Assembly (NCBI GenBank): GCA_003202005.1
Contig: QJJF01000003.1
Span: 124,001 to 188,000 of the forward strand
Reading direction: 5' to 3'
DNA: 64,000 nt
DNA from: Williamsia faeni
Lineage (GTDB): Bacteria; Actinomycetota; Actinomycetes; Mycobacteriales; Mycobacteriaceae
Shown piece after piece: positions 20,049 to 51,675 of this stretch. The translations under genes and the position numbers were made by a program. The notes beneath the pieces were generated by a model. That model was given only the letters and a program-made list of their open reading frames with translations. It ran no database searches and was not told the DNA's origin. How positions within the stretch are numbered: position 1 is the first letter of the stretch; every line of letters begins with the position of its first letter.

Positions 20049-21284
20049 TCACACCACTGATGCCCTGATCGGCAGGTGTTTGAGTCCGCCGACGAAGGTG
20101 GTTTCGATCAGTTCGGGTTGGCCGGTGAGTTCCACCGACCGTAGACGGGGCAGCAATTCCGAATAGAAGCTGCTGACCTCCATGCGAGCCAGTGCCGCCC
20201 CAAGGCAGAAATGGACCCCGTATCCGAACGCCACGTGGTTGTTCGGGCTGCGGCCGACATCAAATCGGAATGGATCCTCGAAGACGTCTTCATCCCGATT
20301 GCCCGACACATACGAGAGCAGTAATGACTCCCCCTGCGTGATCGGCACACCCCGCACCTCGGTGTCCTGGGTCGCGGTCCGCATGAATGCCTTGACGGGT
20401 GTGGTCCACCGGATCATCTCTTCGGCGGCCGATGCCATCAACCCCGGATCGGCGACCAAACGTGCTCGCTCATCCGGGTTTTCGATCAGTGCCTGCATGC
20501 CGCCGGAGATCGTTGCGCTGGTGGTGTCGTGGCCTGCCGTGGCGATGATCAGGTAGTACCCCACCGTCTCGATATCCGACAGCGGCTCACCGTCGATCGT
20601 CGCGTTGGCAATGGTGGACGCCAGATCGTCGGTGGGATGTTCACGCCGGGACGCGGTCACCCCGTTGAAGTACTCGAACATCTCCAGCAGAGCCATGGTT
20701 CGATCTTCTTCGGTTGCACCGCGGTGATACTCCGGCTCGTCACTACCGAGCAACTCCTGCGTCAGCTTGAGCATCAGCGGAAAGTCGGACTCGGGCACAC
20801 CGAGCAGCGACATGATCACGTACAAGGGATAATTCACCGCAACCTCTTGGACGAAGTCGCAGTCGCCATCCATGGCGCGCATCTTGTCGACATAAATGGT
20901 TGCGAGCTCGGCGACGCGGGCCTTCATTGCCTTCATCGCTTTGGGACGGAACCAGTCCCCCGCGATCGCGCGCACCACCTTGTGCTCGGGATCGTCCATG
21001 TGGATCAGCGTTTTCACCTGGCTCGCGATATCGGTCTCTTCCTGCACCGACTTGATCAGAACCGGACGCGGATAGTTGGTGAACAGGGTGTTGTTGCGCG
21101 AAACCGCCATGATGTCTTCATGTTTGGTGATCGCCCAGAACGGGCGATAGTGCGGCTCCTCCACCCTCGAGACCGGAGCCGTCGCACGCAGATGGGTCAG
21201 CGCACTGTGTAAGCGCGCGTCATCGGCATACGCCGACGGATCGGCCAACACCCGTGCTGCGTCCTCAATACCCGGAACTGCCAT
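20049..21284 (-). CDS. cytochrome P450
   Basis: Soluble class I P450 monooxygenase needing a ferredoxin and reductase that are not encoded nearby. Start ATG 21284 has AGGGGA 7 bases upstream and is preferred to 21305. The 411-aa product has the I-helix AGHDTTSATI, the ExxR motif EEMIRW, and the heme loop FGYGVHFCLGAALARME with Cys360 as the thiolate ligand. It follows the DapB-like gene by 17 bases, so the two probably form an operon. Likely role is hydroxylation of the island's unactivated substrate. I cannot assign a CYP family; the overall look is of the soluble terpene/sterol-type actinobacterial P450s (for example CYP108, CYP111, CYP124). Confidence 0.93.
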   Translation of the reverse strand: MAVPGIEDAARVLADPSAYADDARLHSALTHLRATAPVSRVEEPHYRPFWAITKHEDIMAVSRNNTLFTNYPRPVLIKSVQEETDIASQVKTLIHMDDPEHKVVRAIAGDWFRPKAMKAMKARVAELATIYVDKMRAMDGDCDFVQEVAVNYPLYVIMSLLGVPESDFPLMLKLTQELLGSDEPEYHRGATEEDRTMALLEMFEYFNGVTASRREHPTDDLASTIANATIDGEPLSDIETVGYYLIIATAGHDTTSATISGGMQALIENPDERARLVADPGLMASAAEEMIRWTTPVKAFMRTATQDTEVRGVPITQGESLLLSYVSGNRDEDVFEDPFRFDVGRSPNNHVAFGYGVHFCLGAALARMEVSSFYSELLPRLRSVELTGQPELIETTFVGGLKHLPIRASVV

Positions 21285-21301
21285 ACGAATTCCCCTACAC
21301 A

Positions 21302-22369
21302 TCAATTCTCTGTGCTGGCCAACACGTGCTTGCCGATGATCGTCGGCAGATCCAGGAATGTGCGGATCCCCGGCGCCGCCGCGCAGACGGGTTCGATCGC
21401 GTGCACAGCATGCATCGCGGTCCCCAGGCAGGCCTGGTCGTTCTCGTCCTCACCGCCGGTTGCGATCTGCGCCTCGAGAACCAGCGAGGGCGTGCCCTCC
21501 ACGATGACCTTCCAGCCCCGCCCGCTCGGCCAGTCCGGTGCCTGGTCGTCGCGAAGCCGCGTGATGTGTTCGACGGTCAACGCAGGTCTGCCGTCGACGA
21601 CGGCGGTGCAACTGAATCGCTGGGCCGATACGGTCCCCGCGCCGATGCTGCCGGCCTTGACCTCAAAGGCTTCTTCGGTGACAGCGACCTGGCGGTCGAA
21701 GGTGAAATCGTCGATGGTGGCGCCGAGGCCGTCGGCGAGCAGCATCAGCGAGGCCCGGAACGACGAGCCGGCAACTGCCGGGTCGGACATCGGCACCTGG
21801 TCCAGCGGGCGCTTCCCAAAACCCATGATGTCGAACAGCATCGAGGGGCTGTCGTACTCCCCGTAGTCGAGGAGTTCCTGGACCAGGATCGAGTCCACCT
21901 TCCGGCAGAGCCCTGACATGGTCAGCGGCACCACTTCTGCCGCCCAGCCCGGCTCGATACCGGTGGCGTGGAATGACGTCCCACCCTCTGCGCAGGCCGC
22001 CGCCAGCCTGTCCACCACACCGGCGCCGAGGCTCTGCGGATAGATCAGTGCGGTCACCGCGGTCGAGACCACGTTCTTTCCGGAGGCCAGCAACCGGCAG
22101 ATGTTGTCGACCGCACCGAACGGATCCATCTCTCCCTGCGCCATATAGAGAACGCAGTCGGCATCGAGGGCGAGGACGTCGTCGATGCTGTTCGTGGCGA
22201 CCACACCGGTGTCGTCGATTCCGCAGATCTCACCGATGTCTCGACCGACCTTGGTATCGCTGTACACATAGGCACCAACCAACTCGAGATCGGGATGCGC
22301 GGCAACCGCCGCAACCGCGTGCCTTCCGACAGTCCCCGTGGCCCACTGGATGATTCGACGTCTGCCCAT
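21302..22369 (-). CDS. DapB-fold NAD(P)-dependent dehydrogenase
   Basis: Rossmann enzyme of the dihydrodipicolinate-reductase-like group often labelled 'amine dehydrogenase' in mycobacteria. Start ATG 22369 gives MGRRRIIQWATGTVGRHA, where the dinucleotide-binding GTVG lies directly at the N-terminus; a GAGGAG site lies upstream. The 355-aa product has the DCVLYMAQGE and ASGKNVVSTA segments and a C-terminal domain around SGLCRKVDSILVQ. It is the first gene of the leftward P450 transcript, preceded by two operator-like sites. Likely to oxidise or reduce an island intermediate; the substrate is unknown, and no lysine-pathway role is suggested by the context. Confidence 0.8.
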   Translation of the reverse strand: MGRRRIIQWATGTVGRHAVAAVAAHPDLELVGAYVYSDTKVGRDIGEICGIDDTGVVATNSIDDVLALDADCVLYMAQGEMDPFGAVDNICRLLASGKNVVSTAVTALIYPQSLGAGVVDRLAAACAEGGTSFHATGIEPGWAAEVVPLTMSGLCRKVDSILVQELLDYGEYDSPSMLFDIMGFGKRPLDQVPMSDPAVAGSSFRASLMLLADGLGATIDDFTFDRQVAVTEEAFEVKAGSIGAGTVSAQRFSCTAVVDGRPALTVEHITRLRDDQAPDWPSGRGWKVIVEGTPSLVLEAQIATGGEDENDQACLGTAMHAVHAIEPVCAAAPGIRTFLDLPTIIGKHVLASTEN

Positions 22370-22454
22370 ACTGCCCACGTGCTCCTCGCAAAGTTGGTGT
22401 TCCGGTCTCCGGGCGGTGACCACGATGCCTGTCACAACTCGGAGGATTGCATCT

Positions 22455-22477
22455 AACTGTAAGGCATACCGTATCCC
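22455..22477. promoter_or_regulatory. island operator-like site A
   Basis: AACTGTAAGGCATAC followed by CGTATCCC. The 3' part is an imperfect inverted repeat (GGCATAC-C-GTATCCC). The 15-base core recurs at 36889-36903 (reverse). Lies in the divergent gap between the DapB-like gene and the amidohydrolase gene. Confidence 0.5.
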
Positions 22478-22532
22478 ATTCCCCAGATCTTGAGATGACT
22501 TCCCAACATCGTCGATGCAGGCTAAATTGAAA

Positions 22533-22547
22533 GCCATACTGTATGGC
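22533..22547. promoter_or_regulatory. island operator-like site B, perfect palindrome
   Basis: GCCATAC-T-GTATGGC, a perfect 7-1-7 inverted repeat that contains TACTGTATGGC. It lies 20 bases upstream of the amidohydrolase start, where a bound repressor would block transcription. Size and symmetry suit a TetR-family dimer. Confidence 0.6.
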
Positions 22548-22567
22548 CCTCGGAATGGAGAACAGTC

Positions 22568-23869
22568 GTGGACAAAAATGACATGATCCTGATCAGCGTC
22601 GATGACCACATCATCGAACCGCCCGACATGTTCAAGAACCATCTACCGAAGAAGTACCTCGAGGACGCGCCTCGGCTGGTCCACCAGGACAGTGGCGCGG
22701 ACGTCTGGAAGTTCCGCGACATCGTCATCCCGAATGTTGCGCTCAACGCCGTGGCCGGCCGTCCGAAAGAGGAGTACGGGCTCGAACCAGATGGGCTGGA
22801 CGAGATCCGCCCCGGGTGCTTCGACGTCGATGAACGCGTCAAGGACATGAACGCCGGCGGGGTCCTGGCCCAGATGAACTTCCCGTCGTTCCCCGGTTTC
22901 GCAGCCCGCCTGTTCGCGACGGACGACCCCGACTTCTCACTGGCGCTGGTGCAGGCCTACAACGATTGGCACATCGACGAATGGTGCGGGGCCCATCCGG
23001 GACGCTTCATCCCCATGGCGTTGCCGGTCATCTGGGACGCGGAGCAGTGCGCCAAGGAAGTCCGCCGGGTCTCCGAAAAGGGCGTTCATTCACTGACATT
23101 CAGCGAGAATCCGGCAGCTCTGGGCTATCCCAGCTTCCACGACCCGTACTGGAATCCGCTCTGGAAGGCCCTGGTCGACACCGAAACCGTGCTGTCGGTC
23201 CACATCGGATCGTCGGGCCGGCTCTCGATCCCAGCCGTCGATTCACCGCCCGATGTGATGATCACACTGCAACCGATGAACATCGTGCAGGCCGCGGCAG
23301 ATCTGCTGTGGTCCCAACCGGTCAAGGACTATCCGGACCTGAAAATCGCGCTCTCCGAAGGCGGAACCGGATGGATCCCCTACTTCCTCGAACGGGTCGA
23401 TCGCACCTTTGAAATGCATTCGACGTGGACGTTGCAGGACTTCGGCGGCAAACTGCCGAGCGAGGTGTTCCGCGAGCATTTCCTCACCTGCTTCATCAGT
23501 GATCCACTCGGGGTGAAGCTGCGCCACGAGATCGGCGTCGACAACATCAGCTGGGAGATGGACTACCCCCACAGCGATTCGGTGTGGCCCAACGCCCCTG
23601 AAGAACTGTCCGGCGTGTTCGATGCCGAGAACGTTCCCGACGACGAGATCAACAAGATCACCCACCTCAACGCCATGCGCTGGTATTCCTTCGACCCGTT
23701 CAAGCATGTACCCCGCGAGAAGGCGACGGTGGGAGCACTTCGCGCGGCAGCGGCCGGCCATGACATCAGCATTCAGGCGCGCAGCCACCACACCGTCGAC
23801 GCGTCGGTGAAGCTCGCGAACTTCCAGACCCAGATCAAGGCAGCCACCGGGCACACCGCAACCAAATAG
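22568..23869 (+). CDS. amidohydrolase-family (PF04909) hydrolase/decarboxylase 1
   Basis: TIM-barrel metal enzyme of the amidohydrolase-2 group, which includes ACMSD-type decarboxylases and C-C hydrolases. The 433-aa product starts at GTG 22568 with GGAG 8 bases upstream. Metal-ligand motifs are SVDDHIIEP at residue ~10, LSVHIGSSG mid-chain, and SWEMDYPHSDS near residue 335. It begins a rightward pair with the carboxyltransferase gene. Three paralogs lie elsewhere in the island (27796, 31366, 33891); this one is the most divergent in its C-terminal third. Substrate unknown; ring or C-C bond cleavage of a CoA or free-acid intermediate is inference. Confidence 0.85.
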   Translation: MDKNDMILISVDDHIIEPPDMFKNHLPKKYLEDAPRLVHQDSGADVWKFRDIVIPNVALNAVAGRPKEEYGLEPDGLDEIRPGCFDVDERVKDMNAGGVLAQMNFPSFPGFAARLFATDDPDFSLALVQAYNDWHIDEWCGAHPGRFIPMALPVIWDAEQCAKEVRRVSEKGVHSLTFSENPAALGYPSFHDPYWNPLWKALVDTETVLSVHIGSSGRLSIPAVDSPPDVMITLQPMNIVQAAADLLWSQPVKDYPDLKIALSEGGTGWIPYFLERVDRTFEMHSTWTLQDFGGKLPSEVFREHFLTCFISDPLGVKLRHEIGVDNISWEMDYPHSDSVWPNAPEELSGVFDAENVPDDEINKITHLNAMRWYSFDPFKHVPREKATVGALRAAAAGHDISIQARSHHTVDASVKLANFQTQIKAATGHTATK

Positions 23870-23905
23870 CCGCGCCAACACCACTTTCGACGAGGAATGA
23901 GCTAC

Positions 23906-25405
23906 ATGACAAACGCACAGGGCTGGAAGGCGACGATCGAGGATCTCGACAACCGCCGGCAGCACGCGCACGGGATGGGCGGACCGGAAAAGGTTGCCAA
24001 GCACCACGCGAAGGGCAAGCTCGATGCCCGGCAACGGGTTGCCCGCTTCCTCGATCCGGGTAGCTTCCAGGAAATCGGCACCCTGGTCGGTGGCGAGATC
24101 GCCTCCGACGGCATCGTGGTCGGATCGGGCCGGGTGAACGGCAACCCGGTGATGGTCGGTGCCGAGGACTTCACCACGATGGCGGGCACCATTGCACCGG
24201 GCAGCAACTCCAAGCGGTACCGCATCGCCGAACTCGCTGTGCGCAACAAGGTCCCGCTGGTGATGATGCTCGAAGGAGCCGGCTTCCGCGCCACCGCACA
24301 CGCCTACGGGCGCACTCCCACCGACCTGCTGGCGCAGGCTCAGTGTTCGGGTCAGGTCCCTCTGATCACCGCCGTTCTCGGATCGTCGGCCGGCCACGGC
24401 GCCCTTGTCGCCCCCATCTCCGACTTCACCGTCATGAGCAAACAGGGCGCTATTTTCACCGCGGGCCCTCCGGTGGTCAAAGAGTCGACCGGAGAGACCA
24501 TCACCAAGGAAGACCTCGGTGGACCTGCGACCGCGATCGCCAGCGGGGTCATCCACAACCTCGCCGACGACGACGAAGCCGCCATCGACGACATCCGGCG
24601 GTATCTGAGTTACTTCCCCTCGAGTGCCTGGTCATATCCGCCATCGCTGGCGGCCGATGACGATGACAACGAAAAACGGCCCACCACTGAGCTTCTCGAC
24701 ATCATTGCGCGCGACAGTCGCCGGGTCTATGACATGCACGATGTGCTCGACGTGGTGTTCGATCGGCCGGACTACTTCGAGGTTCAGCCCACCTTCGGTC
24801 CGGCAATCATCTGCGCGCTCGCGCATCTGGGCGGTCACCCGGTGGCAGTGGTGGCCAATCAGCCTCAGGTGCTCGCCGGTTCCATCAACTCCGATGCGGC
24901 GGACAAGGCCGCGCACTTCATCAACGTGGCCGATTCATTCCATCTCCCGCTGATCTTCCTGGCGGACAACCCCGGCATGCTCCCGGGCAGCGCGTCCGAG
25001 CGGGCCGGCGTACTCCGCAGCGGCGCACGGATGTTCGCGGCCCAAACGACGTCCTCCACCATCAAGTTGCACGTCACGTTGCGCAAGGCATATGGATTCG
25101 GCTCGATGGTCATGTCCCTGATCGGATTCGACAGCCAGGCAGCCACTTTCGCATACCCCGGGGCAACGATGGGCGCCATGAGCGCGGCGGCGCTGAGCCG
25201 GGCATCCAATGCGAAAGAGGACGTGAGCACCGTACTTCGCGAAATGGAACTCGAGGCCTCCTATCGCTCCGCCGGACATCTCGGATTCGATGAACTCATC
25301 AACCCCGCTGATACCCGCAATGCTCTCCTCGGCTCGCTGGAACTGGCTCTGCGCGGCCGGCAGGCTGCTGCCCAGCCCGTCCTGCGGACCACCATCACAC
25401 CCTGA
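23906..25405 (+). CDS. acyl-CoA carboxylase, carboxyltransferase (beta) subunit
   Basis: Carboxyltransferase half of a biotin-dependent acyl-CoA carboxylase (PccB/AccD family). The 499-aa product has HHAKGKLDARQRVARFLDPG at the N-terminus, the first crotonase-like half with LLEGAGFR-type sequence as MLEGAGFRAT and VAPISDFTVMS, and the second half with NQPQVLAGSINSDAADKAA and ADNPGMLPGS. No biotin carboxylase or BCCP gene is near, so it must use a shared alpha subunit such as AccA3. ATG 23906 is preferred to 23897 because GAGGA is too close to the latter. Substrate could be a branched or terpenoid acyl-CoA, but this is inferred from context only. Confidence 0.88.
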   Translation: MTNAQGWKATIEDLDNRRQHAHGMGGPEKVAKHHAKGKLDARQRVARFLDPGSFQEIGTLVGGEIASDGIVVGSGRVNGNPVMVGAEDFTTMAGTIAPGSNSKRYRIAELAVRNKVPLVMMLEGAGFRATAHAYGRTPTDLLAQAQCSGQVPLITAVLGSSAGHGALVAPISDFTVMSKQGAIFTAGPPVVKESTGETITKEDLGGPATAIASGVIHNLADDDEAAIDDIRRYLSYFPSSAWSYPPSLAADDDDNEKRPTTELLDIIARDSRRVYDMHDVLDVVFDRPDYFEVQPTFGPAIICALAHLGGHPVAVVANQPQVLAGSINSDAADKAAHFINVADSFHLPLIFLADNPGMLPGSASERAGVLRSGARMFAAQTTSSTIKLHVTLRKAYGFGSMVMSLIGFDSQAATFAYPGATMGAMSAAALSRASNAKEDVSTVLREMELEASYRSAGHLGFDELINPADTRNALLGSLELALRGRQAAAQPVLRTTITP

Positions 25406-25538: not shown

Positions 25539-26348
25539 TCACGTGATCGTCATCGGACCGGTTTCGACCACCGACCGCAGTTGACCGAGATCAACTCCTG
25601 ATTCCGCTGCTGAGGCGATACAAGCTGCCACGTCCTTGGCGATATACGGACCGGCCAGGTCGGTGAAGCCCGAAAGCCCACCAATGAGCTGCAACGATTC
25701 CACCGCCTTGCTCGCCCCGCTGCAGACGGACAACGCCTCGAGTAGGTACTTCTCCTTGACACCGAGCTTCTCACCGAGCTCGATCGCCGAGGCGACCAAT
25801 TGCGCATTGGCCGCGAACAGCACGTTGTTGATGAGTTTGAGCGCCAACGCACTTCCCACCTCACCGGTATCGATGATCGGGTCGGCGTAGGCCTTCAGGA
25901 CCGGCCGGACCCGGTCACGGACCGACTCCGGGCCTGCCAGCAGAACGGTCAGTTCACCGGCAAGGATGTCGGTTGCCGCACCACTCACCGGCGCATCGAT
26001 CACCGCCGGGCCGGCCGGATACTCTTCCGTCAGCGCGGTCAGGGTGCTGAGTAATCCGGTGGTATGTGAGATCACCACAGATCCTGGTTTCGCGTTGGCC
26101 ATGAATCCGTCGGGACCACGGCCGATGTCGCGGATCTGCGAATCCGAGAACAAACACAGGATCAGGATGTCGCCGACCGCGGCCACCTCGGCGACCGAAT
26201 CAACAAGTCGTGCACCCTGATCCGACAGACGGTTCCGCACCTCGTCTTTGCGCGCGTAGAGCACGACCTCGTGGCCGCCGGCAAGCAAACGGGTAACCAT
26301 GGGCTCACCCATCTGACCTGCCCCGATGAATCCGATCACGTCTGGCAT
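25539..26348 (-). CDS. 3-hydroxyisobutyrate dehydrogenase-family oxidoreductase
   Basis: NAD(P)-dependent beta-hydroxyacid dehydrogenase. Start ATG 26348 has GGGGA upstream and puts the nucleotide motif GFIGAGQMG at residues 6-14; an in-frame start at 26453 would add 35 unlikely residues. The 269-aa product has DAPVSGAATDI (substrate loop) and ALKLINN with Lys171 at the catalytic position of the family. Single leftward gene, divergent from the CoA-transferase gene with operator-like site C between them. Probably oxidises a hydroxy-acid intermediate of the island; substrate not determinable. Confidence 0.87.
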   Translation of the reverse strand: MPDVIGFIGAGQMGEPMVTRLLAGGHEVVLYARKDEVRNRLSDQGARLVDSVAEVAAVGDILILCLFSDSQIRDIGRGPDGFMANAKPGSVVISHTTGLLSTLTALTEEYPAGPAVIDAPVSGAATDILAGELTVLLAGPESVRDRVRPVLKAYADPIIDTGEVGSALALKLINNVLFAANAQLVASAIELGEKLGVKEKYLLEALSVCSGASKAVESLQLIGGLSGFTDLAGPYIAKDVAACIASAAESGVDLGQLRSVVETGPMTIT

Positions 26349-26412
26349 ACGTCCATCCCCACTCCAGTTTCCCATGTCCTGAACCATTGTCGCCGGACCG
26401 ATGAGCTGACTA

Positions 26413-26429
26413 ACTGTAGTTATTACAGT
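26413..26429. promoter_or_regulatory. island operator-like site C, inverted repeat
   Basis: ACTGTA-GTTAT-TACAGT, a perfect 6-5-6 inverted repeat in the divergent gap. Both half-sites match the ACTGTA core found at the other island promoters. Confidence 0.6.
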
Positions 26430-26474
26430 AGGCTCGAACAATAGGCTCGTCAATCAGTTGGAAAAGGAGTGCGG

Positions 26475-27695
26475 ATGTCCTCATTGTTGAGCGGTGTCAC
26501 CGTGGTCGAACTGGCGTCATGGACGTACGTTCCGAGTGCGGGGGTCATCCTCCGCGACTGGGGCGCCGACGTGATCAAGATCGAGGACACTCGCGGCGGC
26601 GACCCATGCCGGCAACTGACCGTCGGTGGTCTGCAGCCGCAGGACTCGCGGGTCAAGGTCAACTTCATGATGGAAATCGGCAATCGCGGCAAGCGCAGCA
26701 TCGGCATGGACATCAAAACCCCTGACGGCAAAGCGATCTTCGCCAAGCTGATTGCCGGCGCCGATGTCTTCCTGACCAACTGGCTCCCCGGACCACTCGA
26801 GCGCGCCGGACTCACCGTCGACGCGCTTCGCGCAATGAACCCGAACATCATCATCGCCAGGGGCAGCGGTCAGGGCTCGCAGGGGCCCGACCGCGACAAG
26901 GGCGGATTCGACGCCTCCGGCTACACCGCCCGTGCCGGCGTGGCCTACGCGCTGACGCCGGACGGCAGCGAGTTCCCGTTCGCCCAGGGTCCGGCCTTCG
27001 GTGATCTGCAGGGTGGCAGCACACTCGCCGGCGGGATCGCGGCCGCACTGTTCCATCGCGAGCGCACCGGGGAACCCGACATCGTCGACGGTTCGCTGCT
27101 CGCGCAAGGCATGTGGGCTGTGGCACCGGATATCGTGGCAGCCGACCACTACGGGATCGACCGCATCCCGGCCTACGCGCCGGGCGATGCCCCCAACCCC
27201 GTGGTCAATCGTTACAAGACCCGCGACGACCGCTGGTTGCAGCTCGTCTTCCTGCAGGCCGATCGCTACTGGGCCGGCTTCTGCGACCGGATCGGACGCC
27301 CGGAACTGGCGACCGACGAACGCTTCACCCCAATCGCCAACCTCGTCGCCAACAAGGACATCGCGACCGCCGAACTGCGAGCGATCTTCGCGGAGCGGGA
27401 TCTGGCCGAATGGTCCAAGCTCCTGGCCGACGAGCCCGGGGTGTGGGCCAGCCTCGCCACACCGCGGGAGGTCCTCGACGACCCTCAGGTAGCGGCCAAC
27501 GGCTACCTCCTGACGGCGGCCGACGACGACGGCGTCGCCTTCCAGACCGTCAGTGCTCCAATCCGATTCAACAACACAGCGCCCGAGGGTGCCCGCGCGC
27601 CCGAATACGGCGAGCACACCGAGTCGATCCTCCTCGAACTCGGGATGGACTGGGACGAGATCATCGCCGCCAAGGAATCCGGCGCGATAATCTGA
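26475..27695 (+). CDS. class III (CaiB/BaiF family) CoA-transferase
   Basis: Moves CoA between carboxylic acids, activating a substrate without ATP. Start ATG 26475 has AAAGGAG 5-6 bases upstream. The 406-aa product has LRDWGADVIKIE near residue 35, KRSIGMDIKTP, and GGFDASGYTARAG, in which Asp146 matches the acyl-anhydride aspartate of formyl-CoA transferase; GSLLAQGMW follows. Monocistronic, with a strong terminator 18 bases after the stop. It gives the island a second route to CoA thioesters besides its five ligases. Confidence 0.9.
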   Translation: MSSLLSGVTVVELASWTYVPSAGVILRDWGADVIKIEDTRGGDPCRQLTVGGLQPQDSRVKVNFMMEIGNRGKRSIGMDIKTPDGKAIFAKLIAGADVFLTNWLPGPLERAGLTVDALRAMNPNIIIARGSGQGSQGPDRDKGGFDASGYTARAGVAYALTPDGSEFPFAQGPAFGDLQGGSTLAGGIAAALFHRERTGEPDIVDGSLLAQGMWAVAPDIVAADHYGIDRIPAYAPGDAPNPVVNRYKTRDDRWLQLVFLQADRYWAGFCDRIGRPELATDERFTPIANLVANKDIATAELRAIFAERDLAEWSKLLADEPGVWASLATPREVLDDPQVAANGYLLTAADDDGVAFQTVSAPIRFNNTAPEGARAPEYGEHTESILLELGMDWDEIIAAKESGAII

Positions 27696-29001: not shown

Positions 29002-29053
29002 GGTTGCACACTCCTTGTTGTCAAAATTGTTGTGCCACAGAGCGCAGCGGCTG

Positions 29054-31363: not shown

Positions 31364-31365
31364 TG

Positions 31366-35947: not shown

Positions 35948-35998
35948 GGCGGCACCTCCTGAATTGGGAAAACAGCCCCGAGGACTCTCTGGCACCAT

Positions 35999-36833: not shown

Positions 36834-36888
36834 AAGTGCTCGTCGAGCCTTCGAATACTTGTTGCGAAACTCTGTCGCAGGCGTTCCC

Positions 36889-36903
36889 GTATGCCTTACA
36901 GTA
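36889..36903. promoter_or_regulatory. island operator-like site E
   Basis: GTATGCCTTACAGTA; on the minus strand this reads TACTGTAAGGCATAC, matching site A in 14 of 15 bases. It lies 49 bases upstream of the ligase 2 start, downstream of tetR. Confidence 0.6.
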
Positions 36904-36951
36904 GTGGGATCCGGCCGCGTGGCCGAACGTTGCCATCACCGAGGAGGAATC

Positions 36952-38628: not shown

Positions 38629-38668
38629 TCACTTCCCATCACATGCAGACCCAAGAATGGAGTGCTTG

Positions 38669-39085: not shown

Positions 39086-39119
39086 TGCCGTACTCACCGA
39101 CCACAGAAGGGTTTTGAAG

Positions 39120-42778: not shown

Positions 42779-42809
42779 GCCTACCCCTCGTTGGATGTGA
42801 TTGTTTGTT

Positions 42810-43985: not shown

Positions 43986-44007
43986 TTTCCAACCTCGGGG
44001 CTCTTGG

Positions 44008-44033
44008 GCTGCAGCCACATATGTGGCTGCAGC
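44008..44033. promoter_or_regulatory. 26-bp perfect palindrome in the thiolase leader
   Basis: GCTGCAGCCACAT followed by its exact reverse complement. It lies 23-48 bases upstream of the thiolase ATG. It could be an operator or, in RNA, a hairpin over the leader. It is unlike the TACTGTA sites. Confidence 0.5.
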
Positions 44034-44070: not shown

Positions 44071-44092
44071 TACCGTAGGTCTAACAGTATGC
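44071..44092. promoter_or_regulatory. island operator-like site F
   Basis: TACCGTAGGTCTAACAGTATGC; on the minus strand CATACTGTTAGACCTAC, related to sites A and E. The TACCGTAGGT part resembles the right part of site D. It lies between the divergent thiolase and crotonase 3 operons. Confidence 0.5.
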
Positions 44093-44974: not shown

Positions 44975-45046
44975 CCGGTGCCCGCCGTCCCCCGTTTTCC
45001 GAACCAACGATCAACCCGGCGCCACGCGCCGGCCGAAGGGAGCACC

Positions 45047-45850
45047 ATGTCGTTCGACTGCATCAAGTATGAGGTCGACGGCCACACGGCCACCGTCACG
45101 CTGAACCGCCCGGAAGCACTCAATGCGCTCAGCCCCCACATGATCACCGAACTGCGCGCGGCCTACGACGACGCGGAGAACGACGACAACGTCTGGGTGA
45201 TCATCGTGACGGCCACCGGGCGGGCTTTTTGCACCGGAGCCGACGTGAAGGAGATCCCCGGCGACGGCAAGGTCGTCAACGAGCGCCCCTATCTGTCGAC
45301 GTACGAACAGTGGGAAGCGCCGCAAGAGGGCACCCCACCGTTTCGCACGATGGCCAAACCGATCATTGTCGCGGTCAACGGATTGTGCTGCGGCGCCGGA
45401 CTCGACTGGGTCACCACCGGCGACATCGTCATCGCCTCCGACCAGGCCACGTTCTTCGATCCCCACGTCAGTATCGGCCTGGTGGCCGGCCGCGAGACGG
45501 TGCGTCTGGCCCGGGTCCTGCCCAGGTCTGTTGCCCTTCGGATGGCGTTGATGGGCAAACACGAGCGGATGAGTGCCGATCGCGCCTACCAACTCGGGAT
45601 GGTCAGCGAGGTGGTCGACCACGACAATCTCCTCGAGCGGGCACACGAGATCGCCGCGATCGTGAATTCGAATGCGCCACTGGCGGTTCGGGGAACCCGG
45701 CTTGCCATCATCAAGGGCCTGGACCTCCCCCTTCACGAAGCCGAGATGCTGGCCGAATCGTTCCGCGAACGTGTCACCCGCACCGAAGACGCGCTCGAAG
45801 GACCACGGGCATTCACCGAAAAGCGGGCTCCGAACTGGCAGTGCCGATGA
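45047..45850 (+). CDS. crotonase-fold enzyme 4, non-classical active site
   Basis: 267-aa crotonase. Start ATG 45047 has AAGGGAG upstream. GRAFCTGADV and NGLCCGAGLDW mark the fold. The Glu144 position is Asp (GLDWVTTGD) and the Glu164 position is His in FFDPHVSIGLV. That His is shared with crotonase 5 and lies where I recall 6-oxocamphor hydrolase having an active-site His, so hydrolytic C-C cleavage is possible; this is only a suggestion. It overlaps crotonase 5 by 4 bases, and the two are paralogs that may form a hetero-oligomer. Confidence 0.85.
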   Translation: MSFDCIKYEVDGHTATVTLNRPEALNALSPHMITELRAAYDDAENDDNVWVIIVTATGRAFCTGADVKEIPGDGKVVNERPYLSTYEQWEAPQEGTPPFRTMAKPIIVAVNGLCCGAGLDWVTTGDIVIASDQATFFDPHVSIGLVAGRETVRLARVLPRSVALRMALMGKHERMSADRAYQLGMVSEVVDHDNLLERAHEIAAIVNSNAPLAVRGTRLAIIKGLDLPLHEAEMLAESFRERVTRTEDALEGPRAFTEKRAPNWQCR

Positions 45851-46632
45851 CTCCGTCGTTCGACACCGTCCTGCTGGAGGTCGACTCAACCGATCGCGTC
45901 GCCACCATCACCCTGAACCGGCCCGACCAACTCAACACATTCAATCGCGCGATGTGTCACGAGATGGCCGAGATCTGGCAGATCGTCAAGAACGACGATC
46001 GAGTCAATGCAGTGGTCTTGCGGGCGGCCGGAACCCGGGCGTTCAGCGCCGGACTCGACATGAAAGCCGCCTACGGTCAGCCGGACATCGTCTGGAACCA
46101 CGAGGATCCCGGCGAATTGCTCAGCCCGAAATGGCAAAAGGTGTGGAAGCCGGTCGTGTGCGCGGTGCAGGGTATGTGCACCGCCGGCGCGTTCTACTTC
46201 GTCAACGAGGCGGACGTGGTGATCTGTTCGTCGGACGCGACCTTCTTCGACTCGCATGTCACGGCCGGGTTGGTCTCGGCCCTCGAACCCATCGGGTTGA
46301 TGCGCCGGGTGGGCCTGGGTGACACCCTGCGAATGGCCCTGATGGGCAACGACGAGAGGGTCAGCGCCCAGACTGCACTGGAGATCAGATTGGTCACCGA
46401 AGTGGTTCCGGCGGAAGAACTCTGGGAGCGCGCCCACGCCATCGCCCGGACCATCGCGGCCAAACCACCGACCGCCACCCAGGGCACGGTCAAGGCCATC
46501 TGGGAATCGCTCGACAAGCCCTACCGGGCAGCCATGGATCAGGGCCTGATCTACACCCGGCTGGGCAATCCGATCGGCAAGAACGAACTCGCCGCCAACC
46601 CGGTTACCAAACAGACACCGAGGATCCGCTGA
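45847..46632 (+). CDS. crotonase-fold enzyme 5, non-classical active site
   Basis: 261-aa crotonase translated from ATG 45847, overlapping the previous stop. The open frame extends 5' to 45229 inside crotonase 4 and is a shadow. AFSAGLDMKA and GMCTAGAFY form the anion hole. The two hydratase glutamates are replaced by Tyr (GAFYFVNEAD) and His (FFDSHVTAGLV). The shared FFDxHV and the similar MALMGNDERVSA / MALMGKHERMSA runs show common ancestry with crotonase 4. Ends one base into the ligase 3 start (TGATG). Confidence 0.85.
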   Translation: MTPSFDTVLLEVDSTDRVATITLNRPDQLNTFNRAMCHEMAEIWQIVKNDDRVNAVVLRAAGTRAFSAGLDMKAAYGQPDIVWNHEDPGELLSPKWQKVWKPVVCAVQGMCTAGAFYFVNEADVVICSSDATFFDSHVTAGLVSALEPIGLMRRVGLGDTLRMALMGNDERVSAQTALEIRLVTEVVPAEELWERAHAIARTIAAKPPTATQGTVKAIWESLDKPYRAAMDQGLIYTRLGNPIGKNELAANPVTKQTPRIR

Positions 46633-48143
46633 TGACCGACCCGACCGACGTCTCGACCCGGCACCCACTGGGCCGGCGCATCACCGATGTCCTGACCCTG
46701 CAACCGGATACGCGAGCGATCGAACACGACGGTGTGTGGTCGACCTGGGGCGAACTGGCCGTCCTGTCCGGCCGGATCAGCGAACTGGTCGACACTTACA
46801 GCGGCGGCGAGCAGCGCCGGGTCGGGGTGTTGCTCCGGAATACGCCCGCGCATGTGGCGACGATGCTGGGCATCTTGATGGCGGGCGGCAGTGTGGCGGT
46901 GATCAACCCGTCACGCGGCGACGATCGCACCCGGGCCGACATCGCCGGACTGAAGCTGCGATTGATCATCGGAACCGATGACGACGTCACAAAATTGGTC
47001 GCACCGGCGCCTGAGTCAACAGTTCTCGCCATCTCGGACCTGACGACTCATCCGGTGGTGCGCGAGGCCGGCCAGATCGGCTCGAGCCACAACCAGACGG
47101 CGTCCGATGTTGCCGTGCACATGTTGACGAGCGGCACCACCGGCCCGCCCAAACGCGTGGACATCACCTACAACATGTTGGCCCGCAGCGTCATGGGGCC
47201 GGACCGGACCTGGGCGTCGTCGCCCAACGAGCTACGCAACGGCGTCGCGATCGTCAACGCTCCGCTGGTGCACATCGGCGGCATCTTTCGGGTTCTCCAA
47301 TGCGTCAGCGAGGGCCGATCGTTTGTCCTGCTGCCGCGTTTCGATCTCGACCGGTGGGCCGATGCCGTGCGCGCCTATCGGCCGCGGGCCGTATCGCTCG
47401 TCCCCACGGCATTGCGAATGGTCCTGCATTCGGACCTGACCGGTGACGACCTGCAGAGCATTCGTGCCGTGACCTCGGGAACCGCACCGTTGTCCGTCGA
47501 GGACGCCGAAGCGTTCACCGCCAAGTTCGGTATCCCGGTCCTGACCTCTTATGCCGCAACCGAATTCGGAGGTGGGGTGGCCGGTTGGTCATTGGCCGAT
47601 CACCAGCAGTTCTGGGCGAGCAAACGAGGCAGTGTGGGCCGGGCCACCGGCGGCGCGCAGCTCCGGGTCGTCGATGCCCACGGAAACCCGCTGGGCCCCG
47701 ATGAATCCGGCGTCCTGGAGGTCAAACCCGGACAGATGGGCACGTCGGCACCATGGCTTCGCACCACCGACATCGGCCGGATCGACCCCGACGGCTTCGT
47801 GTGGATCCTGGGCCGTGCCGATCAGGCGATCATCCGCGGCGGATTCAAGGTGATGCCCGACGATGTACGACTGGCACTCGAACGCCATCCGGCCATCGCC
47901 GGTGCGGCCGTCGTGGGCAAGGCCGATCAACGACTGGGACAAACACCCGTGGCCATGGTCGAGCTGCGCCCGGACGGATCCACCGACCCCGACGAACTGA
48001 CCACCTATCTACAAAAAATCCTGGCCCGCTACGAGATCCCGACGGAGATAGCCGTCGTCGGTGAGATACCCCGGACTCCATCCGGCAAGGCCGATCTCGG
48101 AGCCGTCCGCCGCCACTTCGACACCGGCGGTGCACGTGTCTGA
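46632..48143 (+). CDS. acyl-CoA ligase (ANL superfamily) 3
   Basis: 503-aa ligase. Phosphate loop LTSGTTGPPKRVD near residue 165 has Arg after the Lys, where most relatives have Gly. SYAATEFGGG matches the A5 acid region, TTDIGRIDPDGFVWILGRAD the hinge, and TPSGKADLG holds the catalytic Lys. It differs from ligases 1 and 2 and is the closest relative of ligase 5 (50176). ATG 46632 overlaps the upstream stop. Substrate unknown. Confidence 0.88.
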   Translation: MTDPTDVSTRHPLGRRITDVLTLQPDTRAIEHDGVWSTWGELAVLSGRISELVDTYSGGEQRRVGVLLRNTPAHVATMLGILMAGGSVAVINPSRGDDRTRADIAGLKLRLIIGTDDDVTKLVAPAPESTVLAISDLTTHPVVREAGQIGSSHNQTASDVAVHMLTSGTTGPPKRVDITYNMLARSVMGPDRTWASSPNELRNGVAIVNAPLVHIGGIFRVLQCVSEGRSFVLLPRFDLDRWADAVRAYRPRAVSLVPTALRMVLHSDLTGDDLQSIRAVTSGTAPLSVEDAEAFTAKFGIPVLTSYAATEFGGGVAGWSLADHQQFWASKRGSVGRATGGAQLRVVDAHGNPLGPDESGVLEVKPGQMGTSAPWLRTTDIGRIDPDGFVWILGRADQAIIRGGFKVMPDDVRLALERHPAIAGAAVVGKADQRLGQTPVAMVELRPDGSTDPDELTTYLQKILARYEIPTEIAVVGEIPRTPSGKADLGAVRRHFDTGGARV

Positions 48144-49719
48144 GTCGGTAGCCACAGCACAGACCATCGAGCAGATGGTGAAATCCGGTGCCGCCCAATA
48201 CCCGGACAAGCCGGCGATCGTCGATCCCGACAGCCGGATCACCTACCGCGAACTCGACGTTTCCACCCGTGAGCTGGCCGCGGGATTCATCGAGGCCGGC
48301 GTCGGCAAAGGCTCCCGTGTCGGGGTGATCATGCCCAACAGCGCCCGATGGGTGCAGGTTGCGGTCTCACTCACCCGCGTCGGCGCCGTCCTGGTTCCGC
48401 TGAGCACCCTGTTGTCACCACGGGAACTGTTGGCACAGTGCGATGTTGCCTCGATCGAGTTCCTGGTGAGTGTGCGCGAGTTCCGCGGACACCGGTATCT
48501 CGACGATCTGCAGGCCTCATTGCAAGTCGACGCCCTGACCGATCAGGTCATCTACCATCCGGTTCTCCCCTCCTTGCGCCGCATCTGGACCGATGACGGT
48601 CTGCCTCGGAGTGCGGACAACGCATCGATGGGTGAGATCGTGGACGCACTCGCGGCCACCGTGCATCCCGACGACCCGCTGATCATCACCTTCACCTCGG
48701 GCAGCAGCGGAATACCCAAGGGCGTGATGCACTCTCATGCCAGCGCGCTCGGTGCCGTCGCGTCCGGCCTCGCTGATCGCTGCATCACCGCCGACACCCG
48801 CCTCTACGTTCCGATGCCGTTCTTCTGGGTGGGTGGTTTCGGAAGCGGCATCCTCTCGACGTTGGTGGCCGGCGCAACGCTGGTGACCGAACAGATCCCC
48901 CGGCCAGAGACCACCCTGCGTCTCATCGAACGTGAACGGGTGACGCTGTTTCGGGGCTGGCCCGATCAAGCCGAGGCGCTTGCTCGGCACCAGCACAGTG
49001 TCGGGGCCGACCTGTCCTCCCTGGTTGTCGGCAGTCTTGATGCCCTGCTACCCACCGACCAACGCGCAACACCCGGTGCTCGCGCCCGACTGTTCGGGAT
49101 GACGGAGACCTTCGGGCCATACTGCGGATACCCCGCGGACACCGACATGCCCCGATCTGCCTGGGGTAGCTGTGGAAAACCGTTCTCCGGCATGGAGGTC
49201 CGGATCGTTTCCGGCGATGGTGTGGCGCCCACCGGATCCACCGGGGAGATCCAGGTCCGCGGGCCACACGTCCTGCAAGGGATCTGCCGGCGCAGCCGTG
49301 GCGACATCTTCACCGCCGACGGCTTCTATCCCACCGGCGACCTCGGACATCTGGACGAGGACGGATTCCTGTTCTACCACGGCCGATCCGACGACATGTT
49401 CAAGGTCAGCGGCGCGTCCGTGTATCCCAGCGAGGTGGAGAAGGCGCTGCGCGGCATCGCCGGCATCCAGGCCGCGTACGTCACCGACGTGCCGGTCGGG
49501 GGCGCGCAGCAAGTCGGCGTAGCGGTCGTCTGCGACACCGCCACCGTCACCGTCGAAACGCTGCGAGGCGCCGCATCAGCAATGCTGAGTTCGTTCAAGG
49601 TGCCCACCGTCTGGCTGCTGGTCGATTCGGACGACGACATCCCCCGCGGAGGCACCGGTAAGGTTCCGGCCCCACAACTACGTCAACTGCTGTCAGCCAG
49701 TACTGATCTGACGTTCTGA
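48136..49719 (+). CDS. acyl-CoA ligase (ANL superfamily) 4
   Basis: About 527 aa. Start chosen at GTG 48136 (or GTG 48130), overlapping the ligase 3 stop; the frame is open to 48061 but that part lies in ligase 3. It has FTSGSSGIPKGVMHSH near residue 195, LFGMTETFGPY for the adenylate, YPTGDLGHLDEDGFLFYHGR, and RGGTGKVPAP with the catalytic Lys. The sequence is of a third ligase type, nearer to generic long-chain/3-methylmercapto-type FadDs than to its neighbours. It lies in the middle of the seven-gene operon. Confidence 0.87.
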   Translation: MSESVATAQTIEQMVKSGAAQYPDKPAIVDPDSRITYRELDVSTRELAAGFIEAGVGKGSRVGVIMPNSARWVQVAVSLTRVGAVLVPLSTLLSPRELLAQCDVASIEFLVSVREFRGHRYLDDLQASLQVDALTDQVIYHPVLPSLRRIWTDDGLPRSADNASMGEIVDALAATVHPDDPLIITFTSGSSGIPKGVMHSHASALGAVASGLADRCITADTRLYVPMPFFWVGGFGSGILSTLVAGATLVTEQIPRPETTLRLIERERVTLFRGWPDQAEALARHQHSVGADLSSLVVGSLDALLPTDQRATPGARARLFGMTETFGPYCGYPADTDMPRSAWGSCGKPFSGMEVRIVSGDGVAPTGSTGEIQVRGPHVLQGICRRSRGDIFTADGFYPTGDLGHLDEDGFLFYHGRSDDMFKVSGASVYPSEVEKALRGIAGIQAAYVTDVPVGGAQQVGVAVVCDTATVTVETLRGAASAMLSSFKVPTVWLLVDSDDDIPRGGTGKVPAPQLRQLLSASTDLTF

Positions 49720-49738: not shown

Positions 49739-50179
49739 ATGACCTTCACGAAATCCATTGGTGAGCTGTTCGACGAGATCGGGTTTCGGCGGACCGCCGT
49801 CGACGGCGCCGCGATGGCGTGGGAGCTGCCCGTCGCCCCCCATGTGATCAACACCGCCGGAGGCCTCCAGGGCGGCTTGCTGGCCACGTTGGTCGACATC
49901 GTCGCCGGGCGCCTTGCCCTCGATGTCTGCGAGGACGGCAGTGTGGTGACCTCCGACATGCACCTGCGGTATCTGCGACCGGTGACCGCCGGAGCCGCCC
50001 AGGCGACGGCCCGCATTGTGCACGCCGGCAAACGCTCAGTGATCATCGACGTCGAGATCACGTCCCAGCCGGCAGGTGAACTCGCCGCCATCGCGACCAT
50101 CAACTTTGTCAGGGTCCGGGGCACATCGCCCTCGGCGGCACTCGACGCTGCGGCATCGCGGCAGCCTCAGTTCGGGTGA
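49739..50179 (+). CDS. PaaI-type hotdog acyl-CoA thioesterase
   Basis: 146-aa single hotdog domain. VINTAGGLQGGLLATLVDIVA near residue 40 contains the PaaI-type Gly-rich helix with an acidic residue (Asp), followed by VTSDMHLRYLRPVT. It would release CoA from dead-end or surplus thioesters. ATG 49739 has AAAGG upstream. The stop overlaps the GTG of ligase 5. Confidence 0.88.
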   Translation: MTFTKSIGELFDEIGFRRTAVDGAAMAWELPVAPHVINTAGGLQGGLLATLVDIVAGRLALDVCEDGSVVTSDMHLRYLRPVTAGAAQATARIVHAGKRSVIIDVEITSQPAGELAAIATINFVRVRGTSPSAALDAAASRQPQFG

Positions 50180-51675
50180 ACACGATGACTGGTACCGAAA
50201 CAGATCCCGGTGCGCGGTTCGCCGCCGAGCTCGACGATCGACTGGCCGGATACGGTGATGCGCCGTTCATCGAGTTCGACGGGCAGTGGTACTCCGGCAA
50301 CAGCATTGGCCACTACCGGGAGCTGATCGACAACGCACTCGCCGAGGCGGGCGTCCGGGCAGACGAGTCCGTCGGCATTGTCGTCCGCAACCGGGTACCC
50401 CACGCCGCCGCGATCTTCCAGTTCATCACCGCCCGCCGTCCGATGGCGATGATCTACTCCTACCAGTCCGAGAACTCCATCGCCCGCGACATCGAAACCC
50501 TGCGCCCCGCTGCGGTCGTTGTCGATCGCGAGGACTGGACCGACGCTGTTTCTGCCGCGTGCGGGCGAATCGGTGCCGCGACGGTTGTCCTGTCGCTGAC
50601 CGAGCCCATCGTCGAACTCGCAGGGTCGCGCGATCGTAAGACCCACGATCACGACGGGACGTTCGATCTACCGGGACTCCACATCCTGACCAGCGGGACC
50701 ACCGGTCCACCCAAGCGCCTGCCCTTGCCGACCAAAGCACTCCAGCACACCGTGCTGAGCATGACCATCGGCCAGACGGCAACCCCCGACGATCCACCGG
50801 AACTCGTGTATTGGCCCTTCGGGAGCATCGGAATCTGCCAGTTGCTGGCGGCTCCGTTTCTCCAGAAACGCATGGTGCTGCTCGAGAAGTTCAACGTCGA
50901 GGGGTGGGTGCGGGCGATTCGCACGCACCGCATCACCCGGACCGGTGTGCAGCCGGCGATCCTGCGCATGGTCCTCGATGCCGGTGTCCCGCCCGAAGAC
51001 CTCTCAACGTTGCAGTACCTGCCGGGTGGGTCCGGACCACTCGACCCCGAACTACGCGAGAGATTCGAAAAGACCTACGACGTCATTCTGCTATGGGGTT
51101 ACGGGGCAACCGAATTCGCCGGCTCGGTCTGCACATGGACGCCGGATCTGTATCGGGAGTTCGGGGAGTCCAAACCCGGCAGTGTGGGTCGGCCGTTGCC
51201 CGGTGTCGAGGTGCGGATCATCGATCCCGACACCGGAGTCGAAGCGCCCGTCGACGCGCAGGGTCGCCTCGAAGCCAGGTCAGAGGTTCTCGACAACCGT
51301 TGGGTGGCAACCACCGACATCGCATCGGTCGATGCCGACGGATTCGTGACCATCCACGGTCGGGGTGACGGTGCCATCAACCGGGGTGGATTCAAGATCC
51401 TGCCCGAAACAGTGCGGGGCGTCCTCCTCGGACATCCGTCGGTGCTCGACGCCGCGGTGGTGGGCGTCGAAGACCGATTGCTGGGCCACGTGCCGTTTGC
51501 CGCGGTCGAAGTCCGGGCCGGACAGCCGGCGCCCACCGAGGATTCATTGAAAGACCTTGTGCGCGAGACACTACCGAGCCATCACGTTCCGGTCGCCATC
51601 ACGGTTGTCGACGAGCTACCCCGCAATGCCGCCCTCAAGGTGAAAGTGAACGAGGTCGCCGCGCTCTACCCGTGA
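50176..51675 (+). CDS. acyl-CoA ligase (ANL superfamily) 5
   Basis: 499-aa ligase from GTG 50176 (or ATG 50185). LTSGTTGPPKRLPLP near residue 173 has the same Lys-Arg variant as ligase 3. WGYGATEFAG is the adenylate motif, and TTDIASVDADGFVTIHGRGD the hinge. The C-terminal catalytic region reads LPRNAALKVKVNE, where the usual GK is LK. Similarity to ligase 3 (same length, loop and PPKR) suggests an old tandem duplication in this operon. Last island gene; the FKBP lipoprotein gene starts 25 bases later. Confidence 0.88.
   Translation: MNTMTGTETDPGARFAAELDDRLAGYGDAPFIEFDGQWYSGNSIGHYRELIDNALAEAGVRADESVGIVVRNRVPHAAAIFQFITARRPMAMIYSYQSENSIARDIETLRPAAVVVDREDWTDAVSAACGRIGAATVVLSLTEPIVELAGSRDRKTHDHDGTFDLPGLHILTSGTTGPPKRLPLPTKALQHTVLSMTIGQTATPDDPPELVYWPFGSIGICQLLAAPFLQKRMVLLEKFNVEGWVRAIRTHRITRTGVQPAILRMVLDAGVPPEDLSTLQYLPGGSGPLDPELRERFEKTYDVILLWGYGATEFAGSVCTWTPDLYREFGESKPGSVGRPLPGVEVRIIDPDTGVEAPVDAQGRLEARSEVLDNRWVATTDIASVDADGFVTIHGRGDGAINRGGFKILPETVRGVLLGHPSVLDAAVVGVEDRLLGHVPFAAVEVRAGQPAPTEDSLKDLVRETLPSHHVPVAITVVDELPRNAALKVKVNEVAALYP

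Follow-up and report, generated by a model that had tools for sequence, protein, structure and literature searches.

A catabolic island between glnA1 and glnE of Williamsia faeni, probably part of a split TetR regulon with predicted dinuclear-metal oxygenases

What are some 32 kb of catabolic genes doing between glnA1 and glnE of Williamsia faeni, and do they belong together? The window, a stretch of 64,000 nucleotides (contig QJJF01000003.1, positions 124,001 to 188,000), carries the backbone genes glnA1 (18533-19966), glnE (54282-57350) and glnA2 (57378-58721) where a preliminary description of this DNA had placed them. The island itself (20049-51675) comprises 28 open genes according to Pfam and NCBIfam, 27 of them enzyme-like and one encoding a TetR regulator. 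The inventory consists of a cytochrome P450, a DapB-like dehydrogenase, four PF04909 proteins (AH1-AH4), a carboxyltransferase, a 3-hydroxyisobutyrate-dehydrogenase-like protein (HIBADH), a family III coenzyme A (CoA)-transferase, two acyl-CoA dehydrogenases (ACADs), five AMP ligases (FadDa-FadDe), five crotonases (ECH1-ECH5), a DUF35/ChsH2 protein, a lipid-transfer-protein (LTP)-type thiolase, a further thiolase, two short-chain dehydrogenases/reductases (SDRs), a hotdog thioesterase and TetR. We hold with moderate confidence that the island is a block of one inducible, aerobic, CoA-dependent regulon for an alicyclic isoprenoid-like compound, and that this regulon includes PF04909 oxygenases. 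CoA-dependent catabolic regulons are of a known kind; the set of probable dinuclear oxygenases would be unusual.

That the island is part of a shared TetR regulon is strongly supported by a predicted operator. The 19-bp dyad TACTGTA-N5-TACAGTA heads each inferred transcription unit of the island (from strand runs with corrected gene starts) and is absent from the flanks, and all 28 genes fall in units headed by one of five predicted operator regions. The pattern drawn from the motif has four matches in the window, all at island promoters. A position weight matrix (PWM) was trained on 37 sites from relatives' clusters, for which 12 neighbourhoods were supplied and 10 gave sites (genomes G173 and G085 yielded none at that strictness; both match a looser pattern). 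Above 10 bits, this matrix finds six sites in the window, all in the island and none in 32 kb of flanks; summed over 20 Markov shuffles of the window, the count was three. Sites of at least 13 bits number six in the island, nine at C1:1215-1262 kb and four on contig C19 (40 kb), with none in the other 32 kb read at C1 and none in 60 kb of three other catabolic loci. These 19 sites compare with a mean of 0.16 and a maximum of 2 for 200 matrices with dyad-preserving column permutations, and a spacing of 5 is the clear peak in the dyad spacing control. With two mismatches allowed, 13 sites occur in this genome, against 0, 1, 1, 0, 2, 0, 0 and 2 in the eight others of the genus; all of the latter sites differ at two positions, and the TetR has no match in any of these eight. 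Regulator and operator co-occur across genomes, the operator is absent from the unlinked DNA read, and the DNA-binding region of the TetR hardly varies over 14 rows, one of which is the second TetR of this genome. Repressor binding at the operator is inferred; given the shared predicted operator, constitutive expression is disfavoured.

Two observations count against the motif. With up to three mismatches the genome has 34 sites, scattered over many contigs, vs 169 for a reversed-pattern control, and with up to two mismatches the numbers are level (13 vs 14), although in the eight relatives the pattern is far rarer than its reversed control (0-2 vs 10-20). The motif was also noticed by eye in the island before a pattern from it served to pick the training sites, so that the matrix is not fully independent. 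Single weak sites would thus mean little, and the evidence lies in the clustering of sites. The half-sites resemble those of the E. coli LexA box, which was rejected as the identity of the operator, since the spacing here is one base shorter and actinobacterial LexA boxes generally differ.

The features of the island are listed below. Likely true starts lie downstream of the listed open reading frame (ORF) starts for DapB, HIBADH, ECH1, TetR, FadDb and ECH5, as judged by where the family or homologue match begins.

20049..21305, minus strand: cytochrome P450 (Pfam p450; 67-73% identity in 8 of the 14 regions fetched from other genomes)
21302..22642, minus strand, true start near 22363: DapB-like dehydrogenase (DAP_DH_C, DapB_N)
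22455..22473, unstranded: predicted operator between DapB-P450 and AH1-carboxyltransferase (PWM 23.6 bits; weaker site at 22525-22543, 13.1 bits)
22568..23869, plus strand: AH1, PF04909, DitZ/PtmU3-like, predicted dinuclear oxygenase (DitZ 388.6 bits, PtmU3 112.7)
23897..25405, plus strand: acyl-CoA carboxyltransferase subunit (Carboxyl_trans; 73-76% identity in 9 of the 14 regions)
25539..26453, minus strand, true start near 26336: HIBADH-like protein (NAD_binding_2, NAD_binding_11; NCBIfam matches all under cutoff)
26412..26430, unstranded: predicted operator between HIBADH and CoA-transferase (PWM 28.4 bits)
26469..27695, plus strand: family III CoA-transferase (CoA_transf_3, 282 bits)
27796..29112, minus strand: AH2, PF04909, predicted dinuclear oxygenase (4dzi 296 bits, PtmU3 77 bits)
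29054..30250, minus strand: ACAD1, acyl-CoA dehydrogenase (Acyl-CoA_dh M/N/1)
30266..31579, minus strand: ACAD2, acyl-CoA dehydrogenase, probable partner of ACAD1 (Acyl-CoA_dh_1/N; IpdE2-like, far under cutoff)
31366..32235, minus strand: AH3, short PF04909 protein with degenerate ligands (Pfam; first and last His ligands lost)
32251..33894, minus strand: FadDa, acyl-CoA synthetase, PRK07798 subfamily (NCBIfam NF005863, above cutoff)
33891..35117, minus strand: AH4, PF04909, predicted dinuclear oxygenase (4dzi 682 bits, PtmU3 83 bits)
35135..36028, minus strand, true start near 35932: ECH1, crotonase (NF004857, above cutoff)
35999..36017, unstranded: predicted operator between the ECH1...AH2 unit and TetR (PWM 21.8 bits)
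36114..36833, plus strand: TetR-family regulator, probably that of the regulon (TetR_N, TetR_C_1)
36859..38628, plus strand, true start near 36988: FadDb, acyl-CoA synthetase, PRK07798 subfamily (NF005863, 709 bits, above cutoff)
36885..36903, unstranded: predicted operator ahead of FadDb-DUF35-LTP (PWM 20.1 bits)
38516..39085, plus strand: DUF35/ChsH2-type zinc-ribbon OB protein (OB_ChsH2_C, zf-ChsH2)
39114..40265, plus strand: LTP-type thiolase (Thiolase_C_1; BbsB 154.6 bits)
40364..41161, minus strand: SDR1 (adh_short_C2)
41192..41962, minus strand: SDR2 (adh_short_C2)
42017..42961, minus strand: ECH2, crotonase (NF006100, above cutoff)
42810..44018, minus strand: acetyl-CoA acyltransferase, a thiolase (TIGR01930, 355.7 bits, above cutoff)
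44071..44089, unstranded: predicted operator between the thiolase...SDR1 unit and the ECH3...FadDe unit (PWM 24.2 bits)
44156..44974, plus strand: ECH3, crotonase (ECH_1)
44978..45850, plus strand: ECH4, crotonase (ECH_1)
45850..46632, plus strand, start approximate (listed ORF 45229-46632): ECH5, crotonase (ECH_1, ORF residues 222-430)
46632..48143, plus strand: FadDc, AMP ligase (AMP-binding)
48061..49719, plus strand: FadDd, AMP ligase (AMP-binding)
49739..50179, plus strand: hotdog thioesterase (4HBT)
50176..51675, plus strand: FadDe, AMP ligase (AMP-binding)

The preliminary description was right about a catabolic block with one TetR gene; its count of 28 genes plus one becomes 27 plus one, and its list had omitted the family III CoA-transferase (26469-27695), the HIBADH-like gene and the DUF35/ChsH2 protein.

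The operator also marks other loci of the genome. The pattern search found ten sites at C1:1,217,072-1,260,470 and four at C19:3,258-35,041, with single sites of up to two mismatches on C11, on C14 and at C3:246,915. The C1 locus (1.215-1.262 Mb) contains homologues (51-85% identity, most above 60%) of those genes in relatives' clusters that the island is without, namely a KshA_C-domain Rieske oxygenase (75% identical to the copy in genome G151), an aldehyde dehydrogenase (a second was assigned by eye), SDRs, two P450s and acyl-CoA dehydrogenases. It further encodes two Bac_luciferase-type proteins, a TetR 79% identical to that of the island, an AH4 paralogue (54%) and, at L195:4188-11277, a branched-chain-type ABC transporter with substrate-binding protein together with a molybdopterin oxidoreductase; an operator lies 151 bp ahead of the transporter, which could possibly serve the uptake of an acid. 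On C19 the island P450 has a homologue of 69% identity with a predicted operator 28 bp ahead of it, and at the C14 site similarity to the DapB-like gene of the island starts about 100 bp after the operator. Because the operator is the same and the relatives' cluster genes sit at C1, the island appears to be part of a regulon split over at least three loci (island, C1 and C19) that occupies one place in many relatives. The parts for complete conversion of an unactivated cyclic or branched compound, which the preliminary description had seen in the island, are therefore present as a catabolic set that is not self-contained, since the Rieske oxygenase, aldehyde dehydrogenase and P450s sit at C1 with the same operator. 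Genome G151 likewise has a second TetR elsewhere.

Two further places in the genome deserve mention here. Its sole mismatch-free operator (C11:177542) stands some 33 bp in front of an Epimerase/3Beta_HSD-type gene, apart from the other loci. At C2:638000-657999 there is a second DUF35 and LTP pair (LTP 76% identical to that of the island) with an AH1-like match (43%) about 10 kb off and no operator, perhaps a related pathway under separate regulation.

The four proteins previously called amidohydrolases all exceed the Pfam cutoff for PF04909, which upholds the family assignment for each of them. The hydrolase reading itself appears less apt for AH1, AH2 and AH4, which have the ligand set of AibH2, and AH3 is degenerate. 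PMC7782822 lists three His, two Asp and one Glu as the six metal ligands of AibH2 and takes an acidic residue at the second position past the last His as the mark of a dinuclear centre. AH1, AH2 and AH4 have the full DxH...H...E...DxxH set and this acidic residue: D12/H14, H212, E264 and D332/H335/D337 in AH1 (the same in 5 of 5 homologues), D51/H53, H265, E328 and D391/H394/E396 in AH2 (1 of 1), and D12/H14, H229, E292 and D355/H358/E360 in AH4 (15 of 15, one being the paralogue in the same genome). The nearest solved relative of AH1, alike over nearly its whole length, is DitZ from Rhodococcus rhodochrous (8uyr, a manganese-substituted form by its title), followed by PtmU3. For AH2 and AH4 it is 4dzi (titled putative hydrolase), again with PtmU3 next. 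Further down stand AibH1 and AibH2, the candidate oxygenases of PMC10811679 and, lower, decarboxylases, except that one decarboxylase outranks AibH2 for AH1. PtmU3 is a reported beta-hydroxylase of diterpenoid biosynthesis that takes CoA-ligated substrates (PMC7782822), the group is named amidohydrolase-related dinuclear oxygenases (PMC10811679), and many AibH2-like members are described as uncharacterised, 90% of them adjoining a small Rieske ferredoxin gene (PMC10401708). AH1, AH2 and AH4 are thus likely dinuclear-metal oxygenases rather than amidohydrolases. They share PF04909 and the full ligand set with PtmU3, AibH2 and SfbO; unlike these, the three predicted oxygenases of the island share a single catabolic cluster with genes for FadD, ACAD and crotonase enzymes, and have the conserved degenerate companion AH3 and no small Rieske ferredoxin gene.

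In AH3, Leu (L19) and Val (V249) take the place of the first and last His, as they do in 13 of 13 homologues; the two Asp are kept, and the middle positions were judged by eye. Its structural model reaches a predicted local distance difference test score (pLDDT) of 64.5 (7 sequences), and the top Foldseek match, 3irs, shows only TIM-barrel likeness. AH3 may be the partner of AH4, as AibH1 is of AibH2. The aib cluster of Rhodococcus wratislaviensis (PMC7782822) likewise has two PF04909 subunits, one non-catalytic, and a HIBADH-like gene; peculiar to it are an amino acid substrate, a LysR regulator and a dedicated ferredoxin and reductase. By the same account, five ligands and one zinc remain in AibH1; AH3 lacks at least two His.

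Some of the evidence points away from oxygenases. DitZ, the best match of AH1, is known here from its PDB title alone, and a literature search on it found no paper. The third match of AH2 is AibH1, a one-metal subunit. By Pfam, none of the 28 island genes encodes a small Rieske ferredoxin, which is usual beside AibH2-like enzymes and not a strict criterion. The partner analogy is also loose, AH3 having lost more ligands than AibH1. The PF04909 proteins could instead be decarboxylases, hydratases or ring hydrolases that act on CoA-bound intermediates without redox chemistry, with the rest of the model kept. Most characterised PF04909 enzymes are one-metal and non-redox (PMC10811679, PMC10401708), and decarboxylases do appear as weaker matches in the same searches, where for AH1 the 5-carboxyvanillate decarboxylase 4icm (37.8 bits) is placed above AibH2 (30 bits). 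However, PtmU3 outranks every decarboxylase for AH1, AH2 and AH4, and all three have the six ligands with the acidic residue tied to dinuclear centres. We regard the non-redox alternative as rather unlikely. Should AH1, AH2 and AH4 be oxygenases, many mycobacterial proteins of the family would be misnamed amidohydrolases, and a catabolic role of dinuclear amidohydrolase-fold oxygenases on CoA esters would become directly testable.

Under the regulon reading, the TetR (36114-36833) and its close copy on C1 would bind TACTGTA-N5-TACAGTA at the promoters and be released by a CoA ester or acid of the pathway. The P450s (island, C1 and C19) and the KshA-like Rieske oxygenase (C1) would convert an alicyclic isoprenoid-type compound to an acid, which a FadD ligase (FadDa or FadDb) would turn into its CoA ester. 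AH1, AH2 and AH4, the last perhaps with the degenerate AH3, might then hydroxylate the acyl-CoA at carbons out of the reach of beta-oxidation, and the ACAD1/2 pair might desaturate CoA esters. The crotonases, SDRs, carboxyltransferase, CoA-transferase and thiolases would finally break side chain and rings down to central CoA esters, through hydration, dehydrogenation, carboxylation, CoA transfer and thiolysis. The LTP-type thiolase, whose best solved match is BbsB (154.6 bits), followed by 6ok1, a lipid-transfer protein (95 bits), keeps its Cys in 14 of 14 rows and has a GEP motif where thiolases usually have GHP.

The substrate class and the order of steps are guessed. A terpenoid-like substrate, suggested by the diterpenoid role of PtmU3 and by P450terp as best match of the P450, is a guess by analogy and the weakest part of the model. 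In a phmmer search the solved structures nearest to the P450 were P450terp (354 bits), 3tkt (330), CYP125MRCA (323) and P450tol (305), and the substrate cannot be inferred from likeness to P450terp alone. CYP125MRCA, named for a steroid P450 family, stands so close behind that the terpenoid hint is weak.

Could the island then be a distant steroid cluster of the KstR/KstR2 type, for a modified steroid or bile acid? Those clusters share with the island TetR control, FadD19-type ligases, a DUF35 and LTP pair, paired ACADs, a P450 and a KshA-like oxygenase (on C1 here). The likeness lies in the PRK07798-subfamily ligases (the subfamily of FadD19), the ChsH2-like DUF35 protein with its LTP thiolase, the IpdE2-like ACAD, CYP125MRCA among the best matches of the P450 and the KshA_C Rieske oxygenase. 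Against this, the 28 genes contain by Pfam no family I CoA-transferase, FAD-dependent ketosteroid dehydrogenase, ring-cleaving dioxygenase or alpha/beta hydrolase, the domain types needed by Ipd, KstD and Hsa proteins. Matches to steroid families also remain under the NCBIfam cutoffs (IpdE2 91 vs 450 bits, EchA19 313 vs 400, CasG 170 vs 750 at best), the operator differs from the KstR and KstR2 boxes, and several PF04909 oxygenase-like proteins set the island apart. Membership in a KstR2-type CD-ring cluster in particular was rejected, as no IpdAB or IpdC domain type occurs among the 28 genes (Pfam, and the best 25 NCBIfam matches per protein) and IpdE2 is far under cutoff. A steroid pathway of this type hence appears improbable. 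The preliminary description had likewise not recognised it as a steroid, camphor, phenylacetate or acyclic terpene cluster, and no description of the cluster, pathway or operator was found in the literature searched, subscription papers lying mostly outside it.

The regulon favoured here is not confined to one species. Among 201 family genomes searched, this one (G000) included, 25 have an AH4 match (E<=1e-90), none of them among the eight other genomes of the genus, and 24 have a TetR match (E<=1e-60); all TetR carriers also have AH4, and only G150 has AH4 without TetR. Thirteen of the 24 other AH4 genomes are Mycobacterium. In 13 of the 14 neighbourhoods fetched from these 24 genomes, 8-22 island genes (at least 48% identity) occur together; G150, with two genes, and G022, with eight, are the partial or weak cases. 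Gene order is shuffled in the relatives' clusters, and the 14 fetched stretches contain no glnA1 or glnE match. A search of named genomes via AH3 retained 80 of 391 loci, all mycobacterial by title, and therefore does not measure distribution. ACAD1, ACAD2, AH3, FadDa, AH4, ECH1 and TetR are each present in 64 of 64 of these loci of at least 19 kb. At a threshold of 55%, DapB, AH1, AH2, CoA-transferase, HIBADH, SDR2, FadDc, FadDd, thioesterase and FadDe were found in 0 of 80, several of them lying beyond the approximately 20 kb per locus compared, as longer neighbourhood stretches show. The gene set occurs in many non-tuberculous mycobacteria, and a catabolic gene list becomes a defined regulon with operator, marker genes and further loci, whose growth substrates are searchable by induction. 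A weak spot of the one-regulon view is that DapB, AH2, thioesterase and FadDe are rare or absent in the relatives' clusters. DapB was dropped as a marker gene, its close match (69%) occurring in 1 of 150 other family genomes, G045, and there on a contig other than that of the cluster. DapB-like proteins form a sizeable paralogue family within this genome, with at least nine matches at E<=1e-40 from the 11 of 28 candidates that were scored, that of the island included (e.g. C18:904, C13:34247 and C4:136765).

In the genus, the block between glnA1 and glnE described earlier is borne out by comparison of the interval. Seven of the eight other genomes lack the island and have glnA1 and FKBP 978-4254 bp apart, so that the genes adjoin without the block; in the eighth, G076, the contig ends before glnA1. 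The gene glnE is present in all eight (86-88% identity). After the island the backbone continues in the order FKBP-RibD_C-EEP-glnE-glnA2, and FKBP and EEP, matched in all eight genomes, are part of this backbone rather than of the island; RibD_C has no match above 45% at the site in these genomes. Alternative cargo at the site includes an F420-oxidoreductase-like gene in four genomes (aligned; one typed) and, in four, a NUDIX gene with a solute-binding-type gene, three of these also having a membrane-protein gene (G092 typed). The glnA1-FKBP interval therefore seems to be a site gathering cargo, and the block appears to have been inserted where additions are tolerated. Comparison of the interval with relatives revealed no common edge sequence, and the insertion junction is not defined. 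In G076, the cargo (L039:3988-12918) comprises NUDIX-type, solute-binding-type, membrane-protein, AbiTii-domain and integrase-core (transposase-like) genes up to the contig end.

GlnA1 of G151 is 91% identical to that of W. faeni, making it the nearest cluster carrier by GlnA1 among those compared, and the GlnA1 tree groups the genus with G151. A tree built from 13 concatenated cluster proteins of 12 genomes (G085, with its few genes, left out) does not place W. faeni with G151, and the two as one clade are rejected by the approximately unbiased (AU) test with p-AU 2.9e-22; GlnA1 kinship decided which pair to constrain, although by then a first tree had been seen. Being missing in the genus relatives, and having a tree in conflict with GlnA1, the block favours horizontal acquisition from within the family, with room for doubt from possible hidden paralogy and from GlnA1 as a single core reference gene. 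A plasmid copy was not found with AH4 as query, 200 of 200 matching plasmid records being below 60% identity (best 44.7%). The converse history, in which the genus had the cluster from the start and the other species sampled lost it, draws on the presence of the cluster in G151 and on base composition: G+C content at third codon positions (GC3) is 0.775 in island ORFs (n=28) vs 0.777 in flank ORFs (n=15; p=0.79). However, AH4 and TetR are both missing from all eight other species, and the cluster tree separates the pair that GlnA1 unites, hidden paralogy permitting, so that we consider ancestral presence rather improbable. By the same GC3 values, composition gives no sign of foreign origin; the previous verdict of no obviously recent arrival accordingly holds for composition, while absence from the genus relatives and the tree conflict speak for acquisition.

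That the island is a patchwork gathered at a permissive site, and not one pathway, fits the differing cargo across the genus and the genes mostly not in relatives' clusters (DapB, AH2, thioesterase and FadDe), but is highly improbable given the common operator at every unit and the co-occurrence of most genes in other genera. Extending the favoured regulon reading beyond W. faeni, we tentatively suggest a widespread aerobic pathway of environmental mycobacteria and their kin, in which alicyclic isoprenoids might be degraded via several dinuclear (Fe2 or Mn/Fe) acyl-CoA oxygenases, one a catalytic/degenerate heteromer, under one TetR operator and with genes that travel between genera; this is possible and somewhat doubtful as a whole.

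The window has no tRNA or tmRNA, and Pfam reveals no integrase among the 28 island genes; flanking repeats were not searched for as such. A DDE transposase gene (DUF772/DDE_Tnp_1; 61557-63281, minus strand) is found some 10 kb right of the island, on the far side of an alpha/beta hydrolase gene, and does not border the island. At the right-hand edge, the stop of FadDe is 24 bp (51676-51699) from the start of FKBP, and read-through from the island into FKBP is possible.

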